Part shown: piece by piece, positions 2,216-64,000 of the stretch | Layout of the letters: each line of letters opens with the position of its first letter | Numbering within the stretch: the stretch's first letter is position 1 | NCBI GenBank assembly: GCA_001414485.1 | Contig: LLEY01000134.1 | Span: forward strand, 62,001 to 126,000 | Reading direction: 5' to 3' | Source: Calycina herbarum | Taxonomy: Eukaryota; Ascomycota; Leotiomycetes; Helotiales; Pezizellaceae | Length of the DNA stretch: 64,000 nucleotides | The notes under the pieces: model-generated | Databases searched by the model: none | What the model saw: only the letters and a program-made list of their open reading frames with translations | Told to the model about the DNA's origin: nothing | Program-made: the position numbers and the translations under genes

Positions 2216-2352
2216 TAGATATTAGTACTATTAAAAGAGTAGCTAATAGAATAGCTAATAGAGTAGATAGTAGAGTTAATACTAAAAAAGTAATAGAGTA
2301 AGTAGTAAATTATAAAAAACGTAACTTTTAATATAAGCTTCTAGAAGAAACT
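2216..2352. other. AT-rich spacer left of the first gypsy insertion
   Basis: Contains short AGAGTAGCTAATAGAATAGC-type reiterations but no recognisable gene. The last five bases (2348-2352, AAACT) are the left target-site duplication of the gypsy element. The same locus continues at 9922 beyond the element. Confidence 0.6.
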
Positions 2353-2635
2353 TGTAACGGCACGAAACGGATAATACTACAAAAGAGGTATATAGAAGTG
2401 CGTTCGATAGAATAACATATCCGAATACTAGGCTCTGATACGAAGGAAAAGACTAAATTAGTCTTTCCCGATAGAGAGGAGGTAGCTATTTATAAGAGGT
2501 TCGGATAATAGTAAGTCCGGAGCTATCTGGCTATTCTAAATCCTGAAACAACATCTGTATCGTATCCTATTCGGTATGTAGACTCGGCAATTCTAATTCC
2601 GATCATTCTAATCAATTCCTAATAGTTCTATTACA
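2353..2635 (-). repeat. LTR of element M (3' LTR)
   Basis: Starts TGTAACGG and ends TTACA, so it carries the TG...CA LTR signature. It matches 9639-9921 over its whole 283 bp, with mostly transition differences. Confidence 0.93.
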
Positions 2636-3139
2636 TCCCCCCTCCTTGAAAAAGACTCGTCCTCGAGGCTTCGTATTATTAGTACGGTATTGGTATAATA
2701 TCGGTAGGCGGTGTCTGTAGACGGTAGTATTATTGTTTATAGTTTAAATCGTAGTTTATTAGTTGTCTTTTATATAATAATAGCGATAAACGAAAGGAGG
2801 AGATCTAATTAGCTATCGGGTAGGAGTCGGTAAGCTATAGTGGCATTTATAGTTTATTCGCTATTGCCGTTTATAATAATAGTAACAAACAACAATTATA
2901 ACACGCTAGCTATTGTTGTTAGTTGTATATTAGTAGCTAACTCGCCCTCGATTCTGATTTCTTTTCCTCTTTCCTTTCTAATAAATAATAACAAATCAAA
3001 TCGTAAGAATACCCTCTAATTAGGTATATCTTCCTATACTAACGTCTTTAGATATATAAACATATAATATACAACATATACATATAACTACAACGTAAGT
3101 CTTCACCTTCAGAGTCGAGGCTAATTCAGAGTACTAATT

Positions 3140-3960
3140 AGTTCACATAGTATAATACCTCTTCCTTACTCTACTAGTGCCCTTCTGGATGCCTACCGTG
3201 TCTGCTATGTTCGATGCCTTCGAGCAAAAGCTAGAGACAGGGAGTACGAGTATATCTTCGTAAAAGACATATCTAAGAAGTGCGAGTATTACGTTAGGCA
3301 GAACGCCGTTTATGTCCTAGTAAGCAGTCCTAAGTCTAAACCAAGTCTAAACCTATACTAACTATTATAGTTGCTCTGGTTTGTAGAGAAGGAGTTTGTT
3401 ATCTTATAGCTCTTAGAAAGCCCGGTTACGATTAAGAAGGCTGCTAAGGCTATTAACAAGATTATAGTTGTTGCTGCTATAGAGGCACCTAAGACTATGA
3501 CGGAGTTATAGTACTCGCTCCTTAAGGAGACTTAGGCGCTTCGCGTCGAGGTTGCTATAAGTATTCCTCCCTTAGTCGGTGCGGTTACGGAGGTGATTTT
3601 AGACTAACATTCTAATAGGCTAGTAATGCCGTGTAGGTCTAGATTCGAGACCTCTTCGAAGCCTATCTAAAGAGCTTATAGGTCGCCGGTGGTTGTTAGA
3701 GTAAGAAGCGTAAGTATACAGAGGTGGAGGGGGTTCCTAGGGATGAGCCAGTTCGGGTCCCTTTTAGTAGAGAGAATAGCGAGGAGGAGGATTATAAGGA
3801 CGAGGATAATAAGAAGGCTGAGGCTGTTACTACACAGCTGGCTAATAGAGCAGCTAGGGTAGAGGAGGAGGTTAAGCTTTAGATCCTATTCAGTGGCGAC
3901 TCGGTGTTGTCTTCTTATTCTTCTACTTTGTCGATTTTAAGTTACTTAGGGGTAACTAGG
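3140..3960 (+). pseudogene. Antisense accessory ORF of element M: Cys-rich protein, degraded
   Basis: Runs opposite to gag-pol, in the 1.3 kb between the end of pol and the 3' LTR. The frame starting near 3180 reads a C-x(1-3)-C cluster (RVCYVRC), a basic stretch, then I-S-K-K-C-E-Y-Y-V-R and further Tyr codons (TAT) that fit RIP-mutated Cys codons (TGT). A hydrophobic/helical stretch (about 3370-3600) and a Glu/Asp/Lys-rich tail (about 3720-3870, in a shifted frame) follow. The composition shows real coding bias, unlike the complementary strand. No family is recognised. It resembles the antisense ORF at 52836-53395 in element C, which suggests a shared accessory protein, perhaps a zinc-binding DNA- or RNA-interacting factor. 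That function is inference only. Confidence 0.5.
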
Positions 3961-3989
3961 ATTAGTAGATACTATTAAGAGTTGTTTAG

Positions 3990-6900
3990 TTAAATAATAA
4001 ACTCTTTACTCGTCCTTGTTTATTTCCTATATACGTATCTATTTAGAGAGGAGTCGAGGTGGTCCCGGTTACTCTAGGTATTTAACATAGAAGTCTCTTA
4101 ATCGATGTAGTAAACCTTAAAAATTGTTAGTAGGATACTAAGTAGGGTCTAAATCGTAGCTGACCTATTTTACTTAATACTATAGTTATCTCTTAAAAAG
4201 TCTACTAATAAGAATCTCTTAAACTTCCTATTCTTATATACTCTAAATAATCTCTAGGGGTGGCTCTAAGGCTTCCTATCCAGTTAGGAGGGTATTCGGG
4301 TCCTTAGACAATACGTCTACAGCGAAAACATTATAAATTAATAATCCTTCTAGGAGCTTTAACTTATAAGAGTATCCTATACGTTCTAGTATCTCAAAAG
4401 GTCCTATCTACTACTCAGCTAGCTTTCGGCTAGGTCGATTTATCTTAAGGTTCCTTATTAATAAGTAGACTTTATTACTAACATCCTAGTTAATAGCTCT
4501 TCAGTGTTAATTCGTACTGTCTTATATTCTCTACTAGGCTTTGGTTATATTGTCTTTAGCTACGTTCCAGGCCGAGTACATACGTTAGGCTATTTTAGCT
4601 GTCTTATCGTAATTTAATCGTTCTTAGGGAATAGAAGTCTTTAGAGTATTCTAGTCCTATAAGGTTCTCGAATCGAGTCCGAACTTAAGCTAATAAGGGG
4701 TTATACTAATCGAAGAGTATAAGAGAGTCATTTATACTCGGTCTATTAGAGGGATTAACTCGCTCTAATTATCCTAGTAGTAGGTAACGAAAGGCCTCAG
4801 TCTCTAATCGATATATCGGTTTATAATCTCTGTCTAACTATCTGTTTATTTATAGTAAGTTATAAAGAGTTTAAGCTTAATACTAATAATACGACAGAAT
4901 TCCGTCTAAAAAGCTAAGACGAATTAAGGTCCTCTATTAGACGTAATCGATTTAGGACAGTATCTAAAACAATAGATCTATTATATAAAAAGTTAAGCTA
5001 ATCCTTTAGCGTCGGTTATAGAATAGTAGGGAATAGACACTAAGTCCTTCCTAAGGCGGTTGATAAATACTAGTATAGTGTTATATCCGTGTTTATCTTT
5101 TAAAAAGGACTTAAAATCCATATACAAATACTATATCAGGTAATTAGGAACTAGTAGTAGATGAAGAAACCCTTGCTATTTAATTTATCGAGGATAAGAG
5201 TATCTATACGCTTAGCAGTTAGCTATGTATACTTTATAGTCCGAACCTATGCCGATCCAGTAGTAAGCAGGAGCTAATAACTAGTATATCTTTTAGACAC
5301 TTAGGTAAGCACTAGATACTTAGTCGTAGACTTCTCGGATCAGATTCATATAGAGTTCGGTGTTTCTTTAGATATAAAGCCGTCCTCTAAATAGGAGTAA
5401 ATTGTCTAGTAAGATAGTATAACTGTTCTTAAGCTAGCTACGCTCTTCCTAGAAGGATTATATATTATCTGCCTTTAGCCTCTAAATCAGGTCCGACCTA
5501 GATTTTAGTATAATATCCAGCTAAATCGTACTAATAGATATCGCTTATTTTTATAAAAAGGTCTAAGTAAGGTCGGTGTTGATTTAGAGGTCTAACCTAA
5601 CAGGTCTAAAAAGGGTACGTAAGCGGCTGTCTAACTTGACTTAATCCTATATTTTAATATCTTACTCGCGTCTAGTTAGAATATCCGCCTTTTAATTTAC
5701 TATTCCAGACATAAATCAGATCTAGAAATTAAAGTCGGATAGGAATTCCATCTATCGTACTTGCTTAGCCGTAAGTAGCTTAGTTGTTATAAAGTATTCT
5801 AAGGATCTATAGTCCGAGTATACGTCGATACAGCTCTAATACGACATAAGTTCAGGCCTCTACTTCTTAAACACTTCGATAATTACAAACAATTCCTTAT
5901 TATAGATTTCCTAATTCGCTTCGTAGCCGACTAGGACGTAGGAGTAAAAACCTATAGAATACCACCGATCACCGTATTATTAAGAGAATACACCTGCTAT
6001 TACTCTATCAGAAGAGTCTATCTCTAGCTTCGTATCAAGTTCAGGGTCGAAGTAATATAAAGCTTAAACTAAGAGTAGCTAGGTCTATAATTCTTCGAAG
6101 GCTTTCTCGTATTTAGGTGTCCACCGAAACGGCTCCGAAGAGCGCGTTATAGTAGTTAGAGGTTTTACGATTTTGCTGAAGTTCTTAATAAATTGTCTAT
6201 AGAAACTACAAAAGCCTAGGTAGGACTTTACACCTGTTACAGTACTAGGTCGGGCCTAGTTATATAGAGGTTCCACTTTCTTAGGGTCTACTTCGAGTCC
6301 TTTCATAGTTAATATATAACCGAGATATTTAACTCGAGTAACGCTGAATTCGCTTTTCTTAATATCCACTTAGAGTCCTACTTCTTAGAGCCGATTTAAG
6401 ACTTTCCTAACTTATTTCTTATATTCTTTAATACTATCCGAATAAATTAATATATTGTCTAGGTAAGCAATATAGAAGTTATCTAGATATTCGATTAAGA
6501 CGTCGTTTATATAACGTTAGTAGGTAGCGGGTCTATTACAGAGTTCAAAAGAAAGGACCTTACATTTATATATTCTATACCTAGTCCTAAACGTGGTTAT
6601 CTCTTCTAAGTCAGGGTTTATTCAAATACAGTAGAAGGCTTATCATATATCTAACTTAGTAAAGATCTTAGCTTTCCTTATTCTCGAAAGGAGTTCGTCG
6701 ATATAAGGAATCAGGTAGAGGTCGTTTTAAGTAAGAGTATTAAGCTTCTAATAATCGATATAGAACCGTAGCTTATCGCTATTAGGCTTTTTAACAAAGA
6801 GTACTAGTAAGACGAAAAGACTATTACTATTAACGATAAATCCTTTATTTAAATTATTAATAAGGTACTCTTTCGTCGCTTATAGCTCTACAGTTGACTG

Positions 6901-9560
6901 TCGATATAGTAGTAAGTAGGAGGTAGGAAGTGGTTTATTTAAGGTGATTTTATAATTATATTTATAGTAAGGAGGAAGTTTGTCCAAAGCTGCCTTTAAG
7001 AATACATCTTAGTATAAGGAATAACATTTAGAGAGTCGGGACTATATCAGATCTATAGTCTCAGCGTCGTTTATAGGCAGAGCTGACTTCTCTTCGATAA
7101 TCCGATCTAATTCGTAGATACTAGTTATAAAGAACTCGGTATCGGGTTATTTCATATCAAAATGCAAAGCATTCGTACTTAACTTGCTAATAAATAAGTA
7201 TATAGTCTAATCCGTCTAGGCTATACTTACAAGTCGGAGGGGATTCGGACTAGAGTTAGATATAGAATTGTTAGGAGTTAGAGTCGTAGATAACAGTGAT
7301 AACTCAGCTAAGAGTTCACCACTCTTCCGTCGTTTTTCGTCTTAATAGAGAGCGTAATCCCTTTAATTCGTATCTAACTATATATTTAAATAAGGCTTCT
7401 AGATCTAGCTAGAAGTTAAAGAAAGTAAGATCTCCTTTCTGAAGTAGGGAGTCGGTAGGGTTTCGGCTAGCCAAATAAGTTGATTCCTAGCAGGGTTAAG
7501 GAGAATTTTAAAGTATTTTAACTATTTGTTTCCGATAATTAAGTCTTATTATCTAAGATCTAAGACAACAAAGGGGCAGTTATAGATACGACGTCTATCC
7601 AGGTTCAGATATAGCCGTATAAACTATGTTACCTTATTCTTAATACTACTATCGTATCCACGAACAGACACTGAGTAGGGTAGTTTTTGAATCTGTAATC
7701 CTAGCGATTAGGCTAGTTGTAGAGCTAAAGGTTGATTTAAGAATAGAAAACCGTTCGCTCCTATATCTATCAAAGCTCGTAACTTAACACTATATCCGTA
7801 TATACTAAGGGTTGTATCTATAAGGAATTGGTTTCCTCTTATAAGGCTAGAAAGATTAAGGTTTAATAGGTCATATTTGCGTAGGCCTAGGAAGGAGTCT
7901 TTACCTAGGCTGCCTCGTTTTCCCTCTGATTTAGGACTAAATCGAGGTACTCTACGAGGACTTATATATCATCTTCGTCCACTTCCTAGACTATCTCTTT
8001 AATACTAGGTAGCTAAGAGTAATCGGGTTTATAATGTCTAGGCTTACCGTAGTAGTGACACGTTATACTAGCTAAGACTCGATCTGTAGTCTTTTAGCGT
8101 TCAGGAGTCGAGGTAGGTTTATAAGTTTAGGAAGTGGTCTGAACGGTAGGGAAGGATCCTTATATAGGTAGGGAGGGTTTTAGTATTATACTAAATAAGG
8201 GTTAAAAGGTAGTCTTTTTAACTGAAGTGGTTATACCGACTAGCTTAGTTATATTAGCTATATATAACTTAGCGTTTCAGCGTTTTTCCTTATCTAAGGC
8301 TAGAAGATCTGTTACTATTTCGACGAAGTTATAGTTCTAACGTCTCTTAAGTATAGCGGCTAAGTTTCGTAGCTATAGTATAATCTTCTCCTATATATAG
8401 AAGAACTGTTCTAACTCTAGTATCTCTCCGAGTATAGCTATACTTGAAAAGCGACCTCTGAAGTTAGTAAACGTTTCTCTAACGTGATCCTTTCCACCTA
8501 TCTACAAGGCCTAGAACGCGTTCCGTGTATCCTCTATCTTATATCTGGTTAAGAAATATAAATCTAAAAGTTTAATTATATCTTGATAATTGTAGAAAGT
8601 AATATAAATCGATTCAGACTTATATCTAGGCTTAAGGTAGTTCTTAGCAAGTCTAGTAGTTGTTCCTTATATAAGAGCCTTTCGAGTCGGGCTTGTATTA
8701 TAATAATCAGCATTTACTAGTAGTCTGTCGTGTACTGATATCTTCTATTGTTAGTATATAGGTAATATACTGTTATCTAAGAGTTTAATCTTTTCTATGA
8801 TCTTGCTTTTCGTAGGTTAGATAGGATTTAGACTACCTTCGAGGTCGAGTAGGGTGGTCTACCGTCGAGGGAAGGTATCAGAGGCAGGATCCCTTAAGCG
8901 AAAGAGGTCTAGTGTAGGACTTAGAAGGGAAGGAGGGTCGTTCTCGGATCGGGATCGTTAAGGTTAAGGGTCTCTGATTTAATTCCTAAGTTTGCTTATA
9001 ATTGATTCTAACTATATGAACTGATCGTTATTATCTTAAAGTTTTTCTTCTAAGCCTTATACTACGCCCTATATCTCGTCTGTATTAGAAAAGTCTCGGT
9101 TGTCTTTAGAGTTTCGAGTAGGTTGCTTTCCTTTCTAGGACCTTTTGTTTTTAGGTGTACGAGTACGGTTCGTAGACCTTTCGGAGGGGGGTCTACTAGT
9201 TTCTCTAGTAGGTTGCTTAACGCTCTTAAGCAGAGCTTTAGAGGGACCTGGGGTCTCTCCTTATTCTAGTATATCGTATACTGTTTAGAGGAGTTAAGAG
9301 GTAGATTTAGAAGCCTTCTAGGTAACTGTATATCGTCGACTGTCTATATCTTATATAGCAATCCCTATATAGAGAGGGTTATTAGAAGTCTCGGGAACAC
9401 TTAGTATATTCTACTCTTATCGACGTAAGAACCGCCTACGATTTTACTAGCTAACTGTTCAGATACTAAACCCCGGTGTTACTAGCTGTCTAGGTGGTCT
9501 CTGATTACCTAGCTATTTAAGGTTGTCGATATACTAATCCGAATCTAGGCCGAATCGAAT
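3990..9560 (-). pseudogene. gag-pol polyprotein of element M (degraded)
   Basis: On the complementary strand a CCHC zinc knuckle (C-x-x-C-H-Y-Y-G-K-P-x-H-Y-K-P) is visible at about 8035-8070, marking the end of Gag. The reverse-transcriptase catalytic box reads I-A-Y-L-D-N-I-L-I near 6450, the RIP form of YLDDIL. The integrase core is at about 4860-5160, with M-D-F-K-S-F-L-K-D-K-H-G-Y and later S-I-T-S-N-R-G-P-x-F-V (D to N by G-to-A). The many in-frame TAG/TAA stops fall at expected Gln/Trp positions, and few frameshifts are needed. It would have encoded the structural and replication proteins of the retroelement, and is now non-functional. Coordinates of the two ends are approximate. Confidence 0.85.
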
Positions 9561-55336: not shown

Positions 55337-56890
55337 CGCCTAAGTAGCTATAGATAAATAATAGCCTAGAATATATCAACGAGTACGCTATCTACCTTAG
55401 AGAAGTATATAACCAACTATAGGCTGTAGATAGAGGTAGATAGAACTAGGTACTATAGAATATTATATAGCTATATATTACATCTACTATTACGCTTATT
55501 AGCAAGGTGCTCTAGCAGCCGGCTATAAGCGAGATCCTCTACCACATTTAAGACGCTGTAAAATATATATAGAATATCTAGAGGGATATTACCGTTATTA
55601 AAAGCTCTATAGAATTAAGTATAACCCTACTAAGTATAGCCAACTTCAGTAGAGGACGAGTAGCAGCCGCTTCTTAGGCATAGGTGGTAGTACAGGCCAG
55701 AGGCTCTCTACCACTGCCTCCGCTAGTCCTACAAGGCATATATACTACTAAGACCTATTCCACAGTCACAGCATACAAAGACCGAGCAGTGACAGTCAAA
55801 CTTAAAGACTATGGGATTTCTCAGCGATTCCGGAAGCTATCCGCTACTAGGATCAAGTATCAAGTATAGACTTTAATCCGCGACAATACAGCTACCAAAG
55901 AAGTCAAGATAGTTGCTATATACTAACCCAAGAGTGGTGACATACAGATCTTTACTAGCTCTACAGCCGAAGCTACAAAGCTTAAGGAGAATAGAGGATA
56001 GGTCAGAAGTCTTAGAGAGCAGGCAGAACTTGTTATACTAACGTATAGAGTCATCGTCTATAGCATCGCTACCAACTCTATCAATATCAAAGATCAGAAA
56101 GCAGCTATCCAACAGATACTTACAGATAACATACAGTTATTCCTAAAGCAGAGATATCGTTCGTTAGATGGTTAACCAAAGAATCCCCACTCAAGCGCGC
56201 ATCCTCAATTATAGTGGAGTTCACAGACCCAGAGATGGCTAACGCTATCATCTACGCTGGAATGGTATAGGACAGACAAGTCCACATCTGCCAGCTCTAC
56301 GACCGCGCTTACAGAGTAAAGCAATGCTTCCGGTGCTACAATTATCGCCACGTCGGCACTCAATATAACGCAGCTCAAATATACGGCTACTACGCTAAAC
56401 TACACGAGACCAAAAACTGCAAGCAGAAGGAGCAGAAGGGTTCACTCCCAGATACGCAGTGTACAAAGGTCCCCACACAGCATAGAGTAATGCCTGCCTA
56501 GCAAGGAAGAAAGAGATAGAAAGAGTTGAACAAGCCAAGCAGATCCGGAGCATCTACTAGCATGTTAATTCCAAGGATAAGGCCTCCCAGAACAGTAACT
56601 CGGACAACACTACGCGGAAAAACGCTCGCTATATAAGTAACTTTATATCTAATCGAGCTATCCGGATACCAGATAACCCAATCGTAGAAACCGCCTTTCA
56701 AACAATCACCGTCCCAGAGTCTCCAGTAGCACAGGCAAGAGACGTCTCCCCGGAACCTCAAACATTCCCAGAGAATATAGAAACACGAGCCTCCGTCGAC
56801 CGGTCAGTTGCAGAGGACTGGGCGACACCAGCAACACAGAGAGAGGCCATACAACAGCAATCGATAATCGCCCCACAGACATCAGCAGTG
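55337..56890 (+). pseudogene. Tad1-type LINE ORF1 (Gag-like) fragment
   Basis: The RNA-binding ORF1 protein of a non-LTR retrotransposon. One main frame can be followed. An N-terminal helical part is at about 55370-55680 (many stops). An open stretch (55684-55869) includes T-V-K-L-K-D-Y-G-I-S. Then comes the region before the knuckles, E-I-S-F-V-R-W-L-T-K-E-S-P-L and I-I-V-E-F-T-D-P-E-M-A-N-A-I-I (about 56150-56260). The CCHC knuckles read C-F-R-C-Y-N-Y-R-H-V-G-T (about 56327), C/Y-G-Y-Y-A-K-L-H-E-T-K-N-C and a third A-V-Y-K-G-P-H-T-A (about 56460). Several Cys are now Tyr by RIP. No ORF2 (endonuclease/RT) follows, so the element is truncated. RIP density drops along it from left to right. 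The 3' limit is uncertain. Confidence 0.82.
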
Positions 56891-57490
56891 GAGCAGTCAT
56901 CCACCCATGGTCAAGTACCGGGCGGCATCATGAACACAGAGGCTATTGAAATGATACCACCAAACATTATCTTACCCCAGCAATCTCTATACACGCTTGA
57001 CGGAATTGAAGGCGAGTTCAGTCTAGACGACGCGGACGCCTGGCTGGCCAACCTAGCGGACAACGACGCCAATGACTGCTCGCACGACATGGTAGAGACT
57101 ACATGCTCTCCACCAACCTCTCTGGCAACAGACACGCGTACGGCCCAAGGGGCTGTCCACAGAGGATGTACATGCCCGTCACACCGGGAAATCTATAGCG
57201 ACTGGCCAACACGATCTGACTATCGCTTCATGCATGAAAATATGCGTCTACTGCGGCACAGAGTTCCCTAGACCAGCAGAACTACGCAGACACATGAAGA
57301 AAACAGAGTATGCCCGCAGAAATATACGAATATTCTACGAGAAGAGTGGAAAAGCCAGCTCTAGTAGCTTCATCATCTTGAGCTTCTTCCGAGTAGGTAT
57401 GTTTTGTTGCCTATTGCTGTGTGGCCTAATAACCATATTCGTTCCGCGACACGCATTCTCCACTTGCCAGCAAGGACCAAGATCGTAGAC
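56888..57490 (+). pseudogene. Broken C2H2 zinc-finger-like fragment next to the LINE
   Basis: A clean frame at 56888-57271 may begin as the end of the LINE ORF1. It contains F-S-L-D-D-A-D-A-W-L-A-N-L-A-D-N, then C-T-C-P-S-H-R-E-I-Y-S-D-W. At about 57234 coding shifts to another frame with C-V-Y-C-G-T-E-F-P-R-P-A-E-L-R-R-H-M-K-K, a C2H2 finger whose last ligand is missing. Beyond about 57320 the frame is lost again. Composition is normal, so the breaks are not RIP. I infer a host zinc-finger gene remnant cut by the LINE, but a chance reading cannot be excluded. Confidence 0.4.
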
Positions 57491-57820
57491 GAAAACATAT
57501 AGATCTTTCTCCCCTTTAGTCTTTTTATATCAGCGCTTGTCGTGACAAGTAAAATCTCGGCCTGATGACAAGCCAACCTACTTTGTCGGAGTTCTTTAAC
57601 GTCGGTGAAAATGGTTAGAAGGATGATTGCAATGTCTTTTCAGGAATAACTTGGGCTGTTCGGGTTACGTGCCATGAACGATTTAAACTCGGTCACTTCG
57701 CCAATAATGTACCTATAATACGGACGACAAAAGATTGACAGTCTATTACGGGAGGGCATCAACGACTATTCAAGTAAAGCCAAAAATTTCATACGTAGAG
57801 AATATCTGCTGGAATGTCTT
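57491..57820. other. Non-coding stretch downstream of the gasdermin-like gene
   Basis: Normal base composition. Probably holds the 3' UTR and end of the minus-strand gene that stops at 57821. No repeat or RNA gene recognised. Confidence 0.4.
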
Positions 57821-58654
57821 TCATCTCACCATATCTTCATAGTCTTCCGGGCCGAGGTCATCGATAATCAAATCCTCAGCAACGATAGGTTTGTCCAAAT
57901 CCTCTTCATCCGATTCATCGCCAGCCAAGCGAGTAGCGTCCACCTCCGGCCCGTCGCTTTTCAACTGCAGTACCTTCTGCCTGAACACCTCGGTCGTGAT
58001 CTTCCTCAACTCAACAGCAAAGATACTGCTTTTTCCCATCCTGGCTTTGAAGATAGTTGCCGTCTGCTTGGTCGAGGCTAGCTTGACCTGTGGGTCGACC
58101 AGGTCGCCAACTGGGTTGGGGACGCCGGCAGTGAGGGTGATCTGTCCGATTGGGAGTTCAACATTCCCCTCGTGTATGCGGGACTGCGCACCGTCCATGA
58201 ACAGCTCGACGTCCTCGCATATCATGATTCCGACGACTAGGCACACGGGCCACGTATTGAAGAAGGAAATCCACACTGGGGCGGTCTCCTTGACGTCGGG
58301 ATCCTCTTTCAGCTTGGCCCAAAATTGGTCGAGCTGCTGGATGCGCTTGTAGCGGATGAACTTCCCGGCCAGGTGGACGCTGTCCTCCTTGTTGCCGCTC
58401 ACCGAGTATCCACCAATTAACTTTAGTGAGGCCGCGAGCTCTTTTGCAGTGGCGCCTGCTTTGGCGAGGACGAAGTCGGTGGCGGAGCCCTTCTGATGTT
58501 CGTGAGTCCTGTATTTGACTGGTGAGTCGGGCACGTAATTAGTCGATGGACTGAGGGGTTCCTTTATGATGGCTCCGAGTATCGCGTCTTCGAACTCGGA
58601 TGCTTCCATCCATGCCTGATATTTCAAAATGACGAATTTCGGGTCTCCTTTCAT
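57821..58654 (-). CDS. Fungal gasdermin-like pore-forming protein (HET-Q1/RCD-1 type), 277 aa
   Basis: Predicted executioner of regulated cell death: after proteolytic release it would oligomerise and form pores in the plasma membrane. A single exon. I start at ATG 58654 because the longer frame to 58678 begins with GTG, and a stop lies just upstream. The length of 277 residues is typical of fungal gasdermins. The pattern fits a gasdermin N-domain: an amphipathic start (K-F-V-I-L-K-Y-Q-A-W), alternating polar/hydrophobic strands (L-I-G-G-Y-S-V-S-G, S-V-H-L-A-G-K-F-I-R-Y), a helix (R-I-Q-Q-L-D-Q-F-W-A-K-L), strands V-C-L-V-V-G-I-M-I-C-E-D-V-E-L and A-T-I-F-K-A-R...S-S-I-F-A-V-E-L-R-K-I. The last 45 residues hold 18 Asp/Glu and only 3 Lys/Arg, like a short inhibitory tail. 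The subtilisin gene next door supports the call. No close homologue can be checked here; the assignment rests on fold-level pattern and neighbourhood. Confidence 0.7.
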   Translation of the reverse strand: MKGDPKFVILKYQAWMEASEFEDAILGAIIKEPLSPSTNYVPDSPVKYRTHEHQKGSATDFVLAKAGATAKELAASLKLIGGYSVSGNKEDSVHLAGKFIRYKRIQQLDQFWAKLKEDPDVKETAPVWISFFNTWPVCLVVGIMICEDVELFMDGAQSRIHEGNVELPIGQITLTAGVPNPVGDLVDPQVKLASTKQTATIFKARMGKSSIFAVELRKITTEVFRQKVLQLKSDGPEVDATRLAGDESDEEDLDKPIVAEDLIIDDLGPEDYEDMVR

Positions 58655-59335
58655 GTCGCGCTGTGTCGTATGATCCACTGGTTGGTTGCACTAGGACGTC
58701 GGGTTTGGGTTGAATTCAGATTTATTGTGATATCTTGGACTTTGCAGGAAGCTTTTGAAATCGTGTCGCCTCAAGTGCGTGGTATGTGCGTTACTCGGAC
58801 CCCGCTTTGAGGCTGAGATGTAGGAATAGCGGGCGACGTGGCCTGCGCGATTATTTGGTGCCACGGGTTTGTTGGGGTTCGCCAGGAGCTACTCCGAACT
58901 GCGCTCAGCCGCCAATCCTTCCCCAATAGCGGGATAAATTAACATATTTTCGTTGGCCCATCAAATGAGCGGCACGAGACTCATCCTCACATGTGAGATG
59001 CCATACTGTACCTGTTGTCCTTACTCGGTACCCTTGTTCACGCCCTTTAGTGCCTCTGACGGCGGATGGAGTGAAAAGAGTAAGATCTTATAAGAAAAGT
59101 ACCACAATGTTTCAGATGAATACAGTATCTAGATCATACTCTAGTCCTATTCTCCCTTGAACACTTTCAGAGCAGAACGTTCCTCCACATAATCGCACTC
59201 TGATCTCATAAACTTCTAGTTCTATAGTTAAATGTAGTAAGGCAGTCAACAAACACAGTAAAAAGTTGGGCTTCCCCATTACAATGGGCCTTTGCTCAAG
59301 AACACGGGTTGCAATGTTTGTTATGAATTCTGTAT
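58655..59335. other. Spacer between protease and gasdermin-like genes
   Basis: Unique sequence of normal composition. It should contain the 3' end of the protease transcript and the promoter of the gasdermin-like gene. A perfect 12-bp palindrome CTCACATGTGAG (58986-58997) includes an E-box core. No ORF is supported. Confidence 0.45.
58986..58997. promoter_or_regulatory. Palindrome CTCACATGTGAG in the gasdermin-like promoter region
   Basis: A perfect 12-bp palindrome with a CACATGTG (E-box) centre, about 330 bp upstream of the gasdermin-like start. It could bind a bHLH regulator; this is inference from the motif alone. Confidence 0.25.
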
Positions 59336-62300
59336 CTATGCCCTCGGGTATCCCATTAGTTCATGCACCAGATCCTGCTTGATTTTGTCCTTGCTGTAGT
59401 TTGCGAAAAACCATTCTGGGCTGATCCAATCATAGCTGTCCCTTTTATTCTCCCTCGACATCATGCGGAAGATTTTTCGCATACCTTGCGGACTCAACGG
59501 CTCAGTATTCCACCCATAATCAGGCATCTCCCTTTGGATGTAGCCTACCATGAAAGCTGCAATTGAAATTGCAACAGGTGTAGCAAATGACGTGCCGGAC
59601 ATATGCTTCATCGTCTTCTTCTCTGCATCAGCTTCGTTGGGGTTCTGTAATGGCCACCATGACTCTATGCATTCGCCAACGACGCTAAAGTTGTCCTTCT
59701 TCGTCTCCGCTCCCTCCGCGGTAGGGCTAAAGGAGGACGGGTTGCCGCTCGCTGTTGCCGAGTGGATGCAGAGAACATCGTCATACTTACCGGGGTAGGT
59801 GCGTGGTTTGTTTCCGCCATCGTTGGATGCCGATGCAAAGACGACGATCCCCGCGTTCAGACAATTCTTAATCTCTTTCAGGATCTTGTCCGGAGTGCCA
59901 GTCTTGCGGAAGCCAAAGGACAGGGAGATCATATGAACCTTCCATTTGGTTCTAGCATGTTCCAACGCCTTTCTGTCTGTCAGTACAGGTTCTGCTAAAC
60001 ATCAAGGGTGTAAGGGAGCAATCACTTCGATGATTCTTTCCCTCACTGCAACCTTTTCTCTTTCGCCATATATTCGGTTTTCCGTGAATTTCCAGATATA
60101 TAGATCAACGTTATTGGTAAGGTCGAGCACGATGCCGGCAATGTGGGTACCATGGCCGGATGCATCCACTGTTGCGTCGCCACCGGTAAATGACTTACAT
60201 TCTATTATCCGGCCGTACTCCTTTTTCACGTCCGGGTGGTTAATGTCGATTCCTGTGTCCAAGATGGCGACTTTGATCCGTTCGCGTCCACGGCCAATAC
60301 GGAAATTTGATCGCTGCTTCTTGAACTCAGTCATCCATTTCCTGGTATCCTTACACTTCCTACTTGTTCGTTAGCTTCTCTAGTTCCTACCTCAGGACAG
60401 TATGAACTATGCGTCTCTTACTGATCGTTGGGTGGGGCTACTCTTTCATCGCCAAACAGCTCACAGTCCTCCAGATCCATATTGGTTATCTCAGGCTCCG
60501 AATCACGATCTTGAATTTGGTGCGGTTCATCTGTAACTGCGCAGTTGAATGATGAATTCTCCGCCAGCTGAGATGGTGCCTGTGTTACATCTTGCATACC
60601 CACCGAATCAAGTCTGAAAGTGGCGTCGCAAAGTCCATCGGATGACTCAAAGTTCATCGGACCAGGGTCGAACTTTGCAGGGCACTCATCGGGGCAATCA
60701 TACACCATGTTGAAAAAGTTCTCAAGCGGCCCAACAACCCACCTGTACAAGTTATCCCGTACACGCGTGGGATCGCTCCCTAGCTTGGTCGTATCAGGCT
60801 TCACACAGATTTCGATCACCTGTTTTAGTGGCTTGTAGGTCTTAGTTCGACTTTTCCACTCTTTGGAAATGATGAATTCGCCAGCGGTTATGTGGCCGGC
60901 ATTTTCGCGTGGCTGGCCGTTCGCATCGATAAATTCACTTGGGTGAAGTTTTTCGATGCCCTTACCTAGTTCTATCTCGAGGAGCATGATTCCCAGAGCC
61001 AGAACTTTGGGGAAGATGTGAGATTGCCTCGGAGCCTCAGTTGTGGCTTCATTTTCCTGCGATGGATCTCCCTGATGAGGGTGCAGCCCTGGTGCAGAGG
61101 TTCGCAATTCGGTTGAGATGAAGGGTCGGTGGTTTAGTGAGGCCCCTTTTTGCAACTTTTCTTGACGTTGCCGCATGAATTGTACTGTTCTCTTGTTCCA
61201 GTCCTCCGCCATCCAATCTGACTCGTAAAACTGCCAGACCGCTTTTGCAAGGAGATAAGAAAGTAGTAACTTGCGCTGGCCGTCTTTATCCAGGCTACCC
61301 GATGCCAGAACCTTTTCAAGGGGTACGCTAGGCGCCTGAAGAGAGATTCCATTCCCTTTGGGTAATAATTCGATGCCTTCGTCGAAGAGGGCACTACGGG
61401 AAACACTAAGCTTCAACCGACCTAGTTCTGGTGAACGAATACGGCGGCAAAAGTTCGATATCATCTTGCCGGTTTGTACAAATCGGGGGGCGTTGGATTC
61501 AGTAGTTGGATTGCTGGTGTCAGATCTAGTCACACTACGGCCTTGAAGACTGCCACTTCAGGGTGTCCAAACGGCGGGAATCCCACAGGACATTTCATGG
61601 AATAATCCATAAAATATTCCATGGAACCCCTTGCCGAAATCCATCTGCGCGATGCCTGGATCCGGAGTGACAGCCTCTCAAGGGCCGAAGTGTACAACAT
61701 GTCAGCTGTTGATCGTGGCCTCCCACCACGAAGAGGAAGCATACTTCTCCAGGAACACGTGTATCTGTGTCTCCTTCCATTCGCCTTCACCAGTTTCACA
61801 ATTGCCAATGAGGTGTTGGTGTAAGAAGAATACGTCGACTGTGACGCCATCGTCTGGGCCTGTGGACCGCACGACGCCATTCAGGGCGACATTTGCCTTG
61901 AAATCGCCACTGCCGATAGTGCAACAGCAAAGCTGGCAAAGTGTTGAGTATAGCTTCTGGAGGCACTGGTTAGTATCGTCATTCGACACTTGCTTCGAGT
62001 TCGATTTGGTAAGATCCGAAAGCTCGGGGCCGCGTGGTTCGCGCTTGACGTTGGCAAACGCCTTGAAGGATTTTTGAAACTTTTCCCGATCTTTGATTGC
62101 CCCCCCATATAGAGTTTCTGCTAGGCGTTTAATGGAACGTTGAGCGCGCTGCGGCTTTTCGTTTAGGACGTCGACGAGGCGAGGATACGAGCTCTGGTTA
62201 TAAGGGCTTGTTGGTTCTTTGAACTGGGCCGGCCACTACAAAGAACATGACTTGTTAGCGAGACTGAAACACAGTACTAGGTATTCCTATGGATATTTGC

Positions 62301-62690
62301 CTCTACTAGTCTTTCAAGGATAACAAGAAGCCGCGAAACCCTCAGCTCGGTCAGAGAAGCCGTCTTGTCCAGCCGCCCTCCTACATCAAATAACAGCGAG
62401 GAGAGTACAGCGAAGAAAGGACTTGATTTGGGTTGTTTGGCTAAAAAGCTAGATTCGTCGCGAAGGGCAGCCGTTGCCTTGACGGCAAAGGCAACGAGGG
62501 CGTCTTTGTCTGGAGGTAGCTCCTGCTCGCATTGGAGATTGCGGCTGGGAGTAGCTGGCCGAAGCGATGGAAGGGTGCCTGCAGACGATCGGGTCAGCGC
62601 CGTATGCCCTCGTCGAGCAAGAGATGCCATGTTTGTGATTCTCCTTCCAAATAGGTTGGTTTTCGTCGTCGGATTCACGATCTGGTTCAT
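59336..62690 (-). CDS. Subtilisin-like (S8) serine protease with N-terminal helical domain, HET-Q2-like, 984 aa
   Basis: Probable activator protease of the adjacent gasdermin-like protein. My exon model on the minus strand: 62690-62307, 62235-61745, 61534-60422, 60359-60026, 59968-59336. Introns are 71, about 210, 62 and 57 nt; the 62-nt one has a GCTAACG branch site, and the sum is in frame. Residues 1 to about 560 are mostly helical and resemble the DUF7580-type region of fungal proteins (L-A-K-A-V-W-Q-F-Y-E-S-D-W-M, L-A-L-G-I-M-L-L-E-I-E-L-G). The S8 domain has V-A-I-L-D-T-G-I-D (Asp697), G-H-G-T-H-I-A-G (His732), S-A-S-N-D-G-G (oxyanion Asn823) and M-S-G-T-S-F-A-T-P (Ser901), so the triad is complete. 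No signal peptide is evident, so it is likely cytosolic. The second and fourth introns are least certain. An alternative start is Met21 (62630). Confidence 0.82.
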
Positions 62691-63048
62691 GGCAGTAGAT
62701 AGCGACCCATGGTCCGTGCACCTTTGGCCCTTCCCATTGACAATCCGTCAAGGTATCTGTACAGTCGCGTTTCAGCTGATATTCTAGATGTTATTCCAGA
62801 AATTATTTACCAACATATCCCACACGATGTTCCAAAGGACATTCCAGGCGATATTCTAGGCGACGTTCATCCTGAATATTCACCCTCGGTCGAAAGTCGG
62901 GATGCTATTTTTGTACCAAATAGATGAGGCATTCAGGCAGCACTGCTCAGCTCAAACCCCGACACCCGATGAGGTAGGGTCAGACTTTTGATCTGATCTG
63001 CCGTCGCTGAACTCGATATTCCTTGCGGTCCAAATCATACGTCTCACC
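62691..63048. promoter_or_regulatory. Divergent promoter between the protease and the right-edge gene
   Basis: 358 bp between two outward-facing starts (62690 minus, 63049 plus), so it probably holds both promoters. The plus-side start has a strong context (CACCATGG). It contains an imperfect 12-nt repeat (listed separately). No TATA box is obvious. Confidence 0.5.
62775..62885 (+). repeat. Imperfect 12-nt periodic repeat
   Basis: Units such as GATATTCTAGAT, GACATTCCAGGC, GATATTCTAGGC and GACGTTCATCCT follow in phase; translated, they would give a D-I-P-G-D-I-L-G-like peptide. A similar ATTCCATGG-rich patch occurs inside the protease's longest predicted intron (about 61590-61625). The repeat lies in a promoter region, so it is probably non-coding. 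Confidence 0.5.
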
Positions 63049-64000
63049 ATGGATGATGGCGCCGTGATTCATCTCATTGCCAGAAAGTGTAAAGGCGTCT
63101 TCGCGGACTGCATCGCCAATCCAGCTTTGGGCGAGCAAGCGTGGATCCGATCCGCGCAAGGCGACTTCAACCTCTGGTGCGCCGGTATTAAAGCAACTAG
63201 GACCGACAAGTCATCTTTGGATTATCGCCTGAGGAGAAAACAAGATGTGCGGGAGGCCATCTGCGACCTGCTTCAGGGCTTGGTCGAGGCCCTGCACAAA
63301 TGCCGGCAGTTGATCGTTGGTAAGTTCAAACGGACATCGGAAACCCATCCAAAATTAACTCATAACTGGGAATTAATCATTTCGCAGCAAAATCGGAGAC
63401 TGGCCCCGGCTCGGCAGGTGCTGGAGAGCCCCAATCAGCTGATCCTGATCCGGATCCGGACAGCCCTCAGAGCCCTGTGTCCTGGGAAGCCATTTCGAAT
63501 GAGTCTAGCCGGCCAGACTCTCTCTCTGGGGATGAAGATTCAGATCCGATCCTTTCTGAGTACATTTCTTACGTCAAGACGATCCTTGGTCAACTCCTGA
63601 GGATCTCTCTGGCCATTCGAAAATCTGGTAACAAATATAGATTCGAGAAAGCAGACGCCGCATTAGACGAGAGAACTTTTGAAGAATTCCGCAAACATCT
63701 TACCACTGTCATTTTAATGGCGTTCGAAGACTCGGAAGCCCAAAAACTCACTGCTGCTGAGAAGATGCATCGAGCTTCAGACTACGACAGATTGACCCCA
63801 ATCCAGAGACGTATGGTCTATGCCAACATCCTCAGGAGAAATCGTATTGAATTCGTGACAAGATCTCGGGCCCCAGAGAGCCATCCGAAGCCCGCATTAC
63901 AACAGCTGGAGCGAGTGGCCGGGGCTGGCAATGAAGCAGCCCCTGAACTCCCAGCCGTTGATAATAGCCCCGACCCCTATCAACCTACGCCCAGTATCAC
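63049..64000 (+). CDS. Fungal helical-domain protein (C2H2-finger-family N-terminus), partial at window end
   Basis: Exon 1 is 63049-63319, followed by a 68-nt intron (GTAAGT at 63320 to GCAG at 63387). Exon 2 is open from 63388 to the window end in the matching phase, giving over 290 residues. The start matches a widespread fungal N-terminal region: C-K-G-V-F-A-D-C-I-A-N, F-N-L-W-C-A-G-I-K-A, S-L-D-Y-R-L-R and V-R-E-A-I-C-D-L-L. Then comes an acidic linker (D-P-D-P-D-P-D-S), and S-L-A-I-R-K-S-G-N-K-Y-R-F followed by Y-A-N-I-L-R-R-N-R-I-E-F. Proteins of this layout are often fused to C2H2 zinc fingers further on, which would lie outside the window. Biochemical role unknown. Composition is normal and codons show no RIP. 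Confidence 0.7.

Follow-up and report, generated by a model that had tools for sequence, protein, structure and literature searches.

In Podospora anserina, het-Q1 and het-Q2 are idiomorphs of one locus (2025 review, PMC12881547), and the protease HET-Q2 measures 388 residues (PMC10989679). In fungi, a gasdermin gene and a protease gene are as a rule described as a two-gene cluster (PMC10197012; PMC12881547), and a figure legend of the review mentions kinase-like domains fused to gasdermin-linked proteases, as well as two- or three-gene clusters (PMC12881547). In a 64,000-nucleotide stretch of the genome of Calycina herbarum (contig LLEY01000134.1; the window) we find a gasdermin-like gene, a subtilisin gene that carries a DUF7580 domain, and a third gene of NOD-like receptor (NLR) type (Table 1). 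This locus is probably a cassette of three genes for regulated cell death: the third gene would act as an NLR sensor, the protease as a pseudokinase-protease relay and the gasdermin as the pore.

Table 1. Features of the three-gene locus, in positions of the window (ORF, open reading frame; AF2, AlphaFold2)
Feature	Position	Strand	Content	Basis
Gasdermin-like gene	57821..58654	minus	277 aa, one exon, stop included	ORF, 77 homologues, AF2 model, structural matches
Acidic C-terminal tail	57824..57946	minus	residues 237-277; candidate autoinhibitory segment	composition and model confidence
Protease gene, DUF7580-Peptidase_S8	59336..62630	minus	969 aa, five-exon model	Pfam PF24476 and PF00082, homologue alignment
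Protease exon 1	62307..62630	minus	start of N-terminal region	helical in homologue model
Protease exon 2	61745..62235	minus	helical region and beginning of DUF7580	
Protease exon 3	60422..61549	minus	bulk of DUF7580; 5' boundary uncertain	PF24476, E 1.3e-17; P0078 alignment
DUF7580 core	60718..61464	minus	kinase-like fold predicted on homologue P0081	Pfam match
Protease exon 4	60026..60359	minus	S8 part with Asp (60257-60259) and His (60152-60154)	PF00082, E 7.6e-11
Protease exon 5	59336..59968	minus	S8 part with Ser (59588-59590), stop included	PF00082, E 6.3e-15
Divergent intergenic region, protease/third gene	62631..63048	none	418 bp	
Third gene, start	63049..64000	plus	C2H2/NTPase core, then NACHT-WD40; runs beyond the window to about contig C40:131416	
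Third-gene intron 1	63320-63387	plus		model

The first gene lies in an ORF at 57821-58690, whose conserved methionine at 58654 gives a single-exon protein of 277 residues, against 278 in HET-Q1. It has 77 homologues at E<=1e-3, 51 of them 270-290 residues long and 14 shorter than 250. No Pfam or NCBIfam model matches the protein; its AF2 model and the structural matches of this model indicate the fold of the gasdermin N-domain, with RCD-1 of Neurospora crassa as the closest solved fold and the bacterial gasdermin structures 7n50, 7n51 and 7n52 also among the matches. By prediction, then, it is a fungal gasdermin, which would form pores and kill the cell. Its residues 237-277 hold 17 D/E against 3 K/R, compared with 28 D/E and 29 K/R in residues 1-236, and the confidence of the model falls at 231-250 and climbs at 251-277. 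This tail is comparable in length to the 40-residue segment that is removed from HET-Q1 (PMC10989679). Common to the two systems are the S8 subtilisin and a short C-terminal segment, inhibitory there and a candidate for this role here. A weak thioesterase match was the sole result of searching the PDB sequences with the protein and with a 52-sequence profile, and we set it aside.

Within 10 kb of this gene, on the same strand and with 681 bp between its stop and the gasdermin, lies a PF00082 gene with an intact catalytic triad (Asp682/His717/Ser886 in the numbering of the 969-residue model). Some 670 residues precede the S8 domain. We placed the start at 62630 because two homologues, P0078 and P0081, begin at the matching methionine and not at the equivalent of 62690. 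Like the other gene structures reported here, the exons are a model: intron 2 (61744-61550) is long, at 195 nt, and its acceptor, picked among several, is uncertain, and intron 4 (60025-59969) has an AAG acceptor, the spliced protein there being gapless against P0079, P0097 and P0101. The best 60 of 190 matches to a whole-protease profile, which are those we examined, are subtilisins and related proteases. The sequence-only reading of this DNA had proposed a single-exon gasdermin-like protein with an acidic tail, 681 bp from a five-exon, same-strand subtilisin with a complete triad; all of this was borne out, including by the structure prediction that it had named as a check, with the acceptors of introns 2 and 4 as the soft points.

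The DUF7580 part of the protease shows a kinase fold when the predicted structure of P0081 is compared with known folds. The HRD and DFG motifs are not conserved: in P0081 stretch 366-441, an approximate interval located by predicted secondary structure, 1 of 34 sequences shows an HRD-like triplet and 4 show a DFG-like triplet. Two lysines of P0081 are often kept (Lys264 in 21/31 and Lys384 in 26/34 sequences) and are possible counterparts of kinase lysines such as that of strand 3. A profile of DUF7580 by itself reached no kinase by sequence, and the kinase claim therefore rests on the fold comparison, which predicts that DUF7580 is a pseudokinase-like part of the protease. No mention of DUF7580 was found in the literature searched.

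The third gene is divergent from the protease, and the 418 bp between them are possibly a shared promoter. Within this region, at 62770-62859, stand three short degenerate repeats of 18 nt, of the TTTCAGCTGATATTCTAG type; no RNA family was found in 57000-64000 at gathering thresholds. The ORFs of the third gene carry a weak C2H2 match, an AAA_22/NB-ARC-like nucleoside triphosphatase (NTPase) barely past the cut-off for AAA_22, a strong NACHT-type domain (NPHP3_N E 2.5e-33; NACHT E 8.1e-09) and 13 WD40 stretches. It thus combines the STAND NTPase (signal transduction ATPase with numerous domains) and the repeat domain of an NLR, on separate ORFs of one frame, and the union of these domain-bearing ORFs is modelled as a single protein of 2,028 residues. 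We do not favour a pseudogene with in-frame stops, as the stops within the model sit in GT...AG stretches of 45-68 nt.

In the WD40 part (L019 4662-6047) we observed eleven consecutive units of 42 residues, on average 82% identical in protein and DNA; two are identical in protein, and positions such as 9, 10, 12 and 28 vary markedly. Highly alike WD40 repeats are a pattern of recognition NLRs (the HNWD repeat pattern). Such repeats, and the presence of the same two kinds of protein, speak for a strain-polymorphic allorecognition locus of HET-Q1/HET-Q2 type, the label that the sequence-only reading had chosen. We nevertheless consider this highly improbable, since in Podospora the two genes are idiomorphs and HET-Q2 is short (PMC12881547; PMC10989679), whereas here gasdermin and protease are both open in cis, the long multidomain protease carries DUF7580, and a third gene adjoins. 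Given the cis position of both genes and this kind of protease, the strict HET-Q1/HET-Q2 reading fails, and the arrangement is that of a regulated Q2L cluster, not of an incompatibility pair.

A search with the first 660 residues of the third gene, in which 7,990 candidates were scored, yielded at least 24 relatives of its core. The C2H2-spaced cysteines and histidines rank with the most conserved positions of this core (22 of 24 relatives plus the window). The C-terminus, in contrast, varies among the six relatives scanned: it is NACHT-ankyrin in Phialocephala, a tetratricopeptide repeat (TPR) region in Cercophora, patatin-NB-ARC-TPR in Curvularia, FHA with a protein kinase in X. hypoxylon and a caspase-like domain in Arthrobotrys, and in Orbilia none was recognised beyond the NTPase.

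The three genes also cluster in other fungi. Sharing of a contig was inferred from the equal size of the relatives' longest contigs, 77 gasdermins were compared with 50 of 91 protease matches, and the linkage counts are lower bounds, because each 90% cluster is listed by one representative and the protease search scored 7,991 candidates. At least 11 pairs of gasdermin and protease relatives share a contig, with consecutive tags in Ilyonectria robusta (08458/08459), Neopestalotiopsis clavispora (g8322/g8323) and Alternaria alternata (g11255/g11256), in agreement with the earlier statement that fungal gasdermin genes tend to sit beside protease genes. For 19 of the 30 gasdermins whose contig measures at least 20 kb, the matches listed include no protease, and the third gene occurs on three of those contigs. 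At least 13 of the 24 relatives of the third-gene core lie on a contig that also has a gasdermin or protease relative, and all three genes stand on one contig in at least five (Thelonectria, Xylaria palmicola, Cladorrhinum, Neopestalotiopsis and Ilyonectria). Tags of gasdermin and third gene are two apart in Monosporascus, Phialocephala and Cercophora, which leaves space for one intervening gene, as in the window.

The sequence-only reading had envisaged a two-gene cell-death module; its gasdermin/protease pair stands, while the conserved third gene, from 63049 onwards, lay outside it. The locus could still be an ordinary two-gene gasdermin/Q2L pair with DUF7580 as its sensor, the third gene being no more than a gene often found nearby in a region of defence genes. 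Such pairs are the described rule (PMC10197012; PMC12881547), and on six contigs, where the sensor is a divergent DUF7580 or TPRs, the pair has no third gene among the matches listed. We regard this explanation as unlikely, because the third gene adjoins in several genera by consecutive tags and, among the matches listed on contigs of at least 20 kb, accompanies 9 of 27 proteases with a window-like DUF7580 versus 0 of 15 others (P 0.016, kinship ignored).

The third gene also remains close to DUF7580 where the protease domain is distant, a further point against a mere pair: Trizodia shows identities to the window of 66% in DUF7580 and 69% in the third core with only 34% in S8, and Curvularia of 60%, 64% and 27%, respectively. 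In Clonostachys the gasdermin (68%) and S8 (65%) resemble those of the window, and TPRs stand where DUF7580 would be. Four Orbilia proteins (P0092, P0095, P0096 and P0098), about 48-51% identical to the N-terminal part of the window protease, have a nucleoside phosphorylase domain fused to DUF7580, replacing S8. Such discrete exchanges, with another S8, with TPRs in the place of DUF7580 or with a phosphorylase in that of S8, suggest that sensor and executor halves are exchangeable.

Identities correlate between core and DUF7580 (0.64, P 0.0015; nine taxa) and between gasdermin and S8 (0.66, P 0.001; eleven taxa), and those of DUF7580 and S8 do not (0.04, P 0.40; 9 taxa), in comparisons that ignore kinship and include some short fragments. 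These limits weigh against the three-gene cassette, as do the following points. The third core/S8 correlation is weak (0.32, P 0.07), and the absent DUF7580/S8 correlation depends on Trizodia and Curvularia, whose S8 is of another kind. Gasdermin, S8 and window-like DUF7580 co-diverge pairwise (0.73 to 0.87) in the five taxa that retain all of them, as plain vertical descent would give, a point that also speaks for the two-gene pair. Among the matches listed, 16 of the 30 gasdermins whose contig reaches 20 kb or more have neither partner, and 18 of the 27 window-like proteases are without the third gene. The NACHT-WD40 part is attached through a model intron selected to keep the frame, and it could for this reason be a separate gene. 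The AF2 model of the gasdermin is only fair (pLDDT, its predicted local confidence, 67.8), its Foldseek E is 0.07, no PDB gasdermin was reached from the protein by phmmer or with the 52-sequence profile, and no cleavage site can be named. In view of the five-taxon values we cut back the idea that DUF7580 and S8 diverge independently, and because two taxa drive the missing correlation we read the data as few discrete swaps over common descent, not as free reshuffling.

The modest confidence of the gasdermin model leads to a further alternative, namely that the 277-residue protein is a non-lytic relative with a gasdermin fold and no pore-former, or that the two genes are remnants in decay next to an island of repeats. 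Immediately upstream, at 2001-56000 of the window, lies an AT-rich island of about 54 kb (GC 22-37%), with TpA/ApT of 1.5-2.1 and (CpA+TpG)/(ApC+GpT) of 0.10-0.53, ratios that we take to be typical of repeat-induced point mutation (RIP), and with no ORF of 200 residues or more inside. The cassette, however, starts at the island's end, where 56-64 kb have a GC of 47-51% and a composition that is not RIP-like; moreover, both genes are open in the model, the triad is intact and the protein family is conserved across many genera. This makes the alternative the least probable of those considered here. At the edge of the island, 56561-57488 holds plus-strand ORFs of 236 and 130 residues, the latter with a CxxC...H...H-like pattern by eye, and on its far side, at 629-1276, there is a 215-residue ORF that looks like a major facilitator superfamily transporter.

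We propose the following working of the three-gene cassette. The gasdermin would be kept inactive by its short acidic C-terminal segment, and the subtilisin restrained by its own N-terminal helical and pseudokinase-like (DUF7580) parts. The exchangeable C-terminus of the NLR-type third gene, NACHT-WD40 here, would perceive a trigger, upon which its C2H2/NTPase core would signal to DUF7580. The protease would thereby be set free and clip the gasdermin tail, and the N-terminal gasdermin part could then form membrane pores and cause cell death. More tentatively, and somewhat short of probable in our view, the cassette may be a decomposed fungal inflammasome, made of an NLR with a changeable end, a pseudokinase-subtilisin relay and a gasdermin. 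Its recognition ends would be NACHT-WD40, TPR, ankyrin, protein kinase with FHA, patatin or caspase-like, the DUF7580/S8 fusion would be the point at which the sensor half (NLR core plus DUF7580) and the executor half (subtilisin plus gasdermin) are swapped, and the DUF7580 relay of Orbilia would drive a nucleoside-phosphorylase effector.

Searching the 68.8-Mb genome with the gasdermin returned itself and one distant match, and the second protein as query added a third (E 0.10); the gasdermin profile gave 39.7 bits for the ORF on C144 and 22.3 bits for that on C367, the only two scored. At the second locus (L017, C144:28000-37000) a gasdermin-like ORF at 4801-5553 plus, without a PDB gasdermin match, is divergent from TPR and CHAT ORFs at 2315-4681 minus. 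At the third (L023, C367:25000-34999) a weaker gasdermin-like ORF with an acidic tail (3168-4253 minus) is divergent from a 1643-residue ORF (4581-9512 plus) with CHAT and an NTPase-like segment below the Pfam cut-offs. Three gasdermin/protease loci, each of its own design, thus seem to be present in the genome.

Since the review mentions kinase-like fusions and two- or three-gene clusters (PMC12881547), the kind of cluster is already known, and the locus shares with fungal gasdermin/Q2L clusters a gasdermin adjoining a multidomain S8 or CHAT protease. A C2H2/NTPase third gene, its changing C-terminus and a link to DUF7580 are not described in the literature covered; judged by it, the conservation of the third gene and the exchange of domains seem to be new, although the primary HET-Q1/HET-Q2 paper could describe this third gene. 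RCD-1 of N. crassa differs in that two allelic forms pair without cleavage (PMC12881547), whereas cleavage would activate the gasdermin here. Bacterial gasdermin operons likewise place a small gasdermin beside its own protease (PMC12881547) but are prokaryotic and have other sensors. The inflammasome/caspase-1/GSDMD pathway has the same order of sensor, separate protease and gasdermin (in part general knowledge, in part PMC12881547); the present locus differs in a subtilisin in place of the caspase, a pseudokinase-like relay and the linkage of the genes.

The 2025 review names as open questions the regulators of gasdermin-activating fungal proteases and the stimuli of their sensors (PMC12881547). 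A conserved third gene tied to the regulatory domain of the protease provides a candidate sensor and an order of action. These results suggest that fungi can hold sensor, protease and pore as separate yet linked genes, and that the pseudokinase-like DUF7580 may be the exchange point between sensors and executioners.
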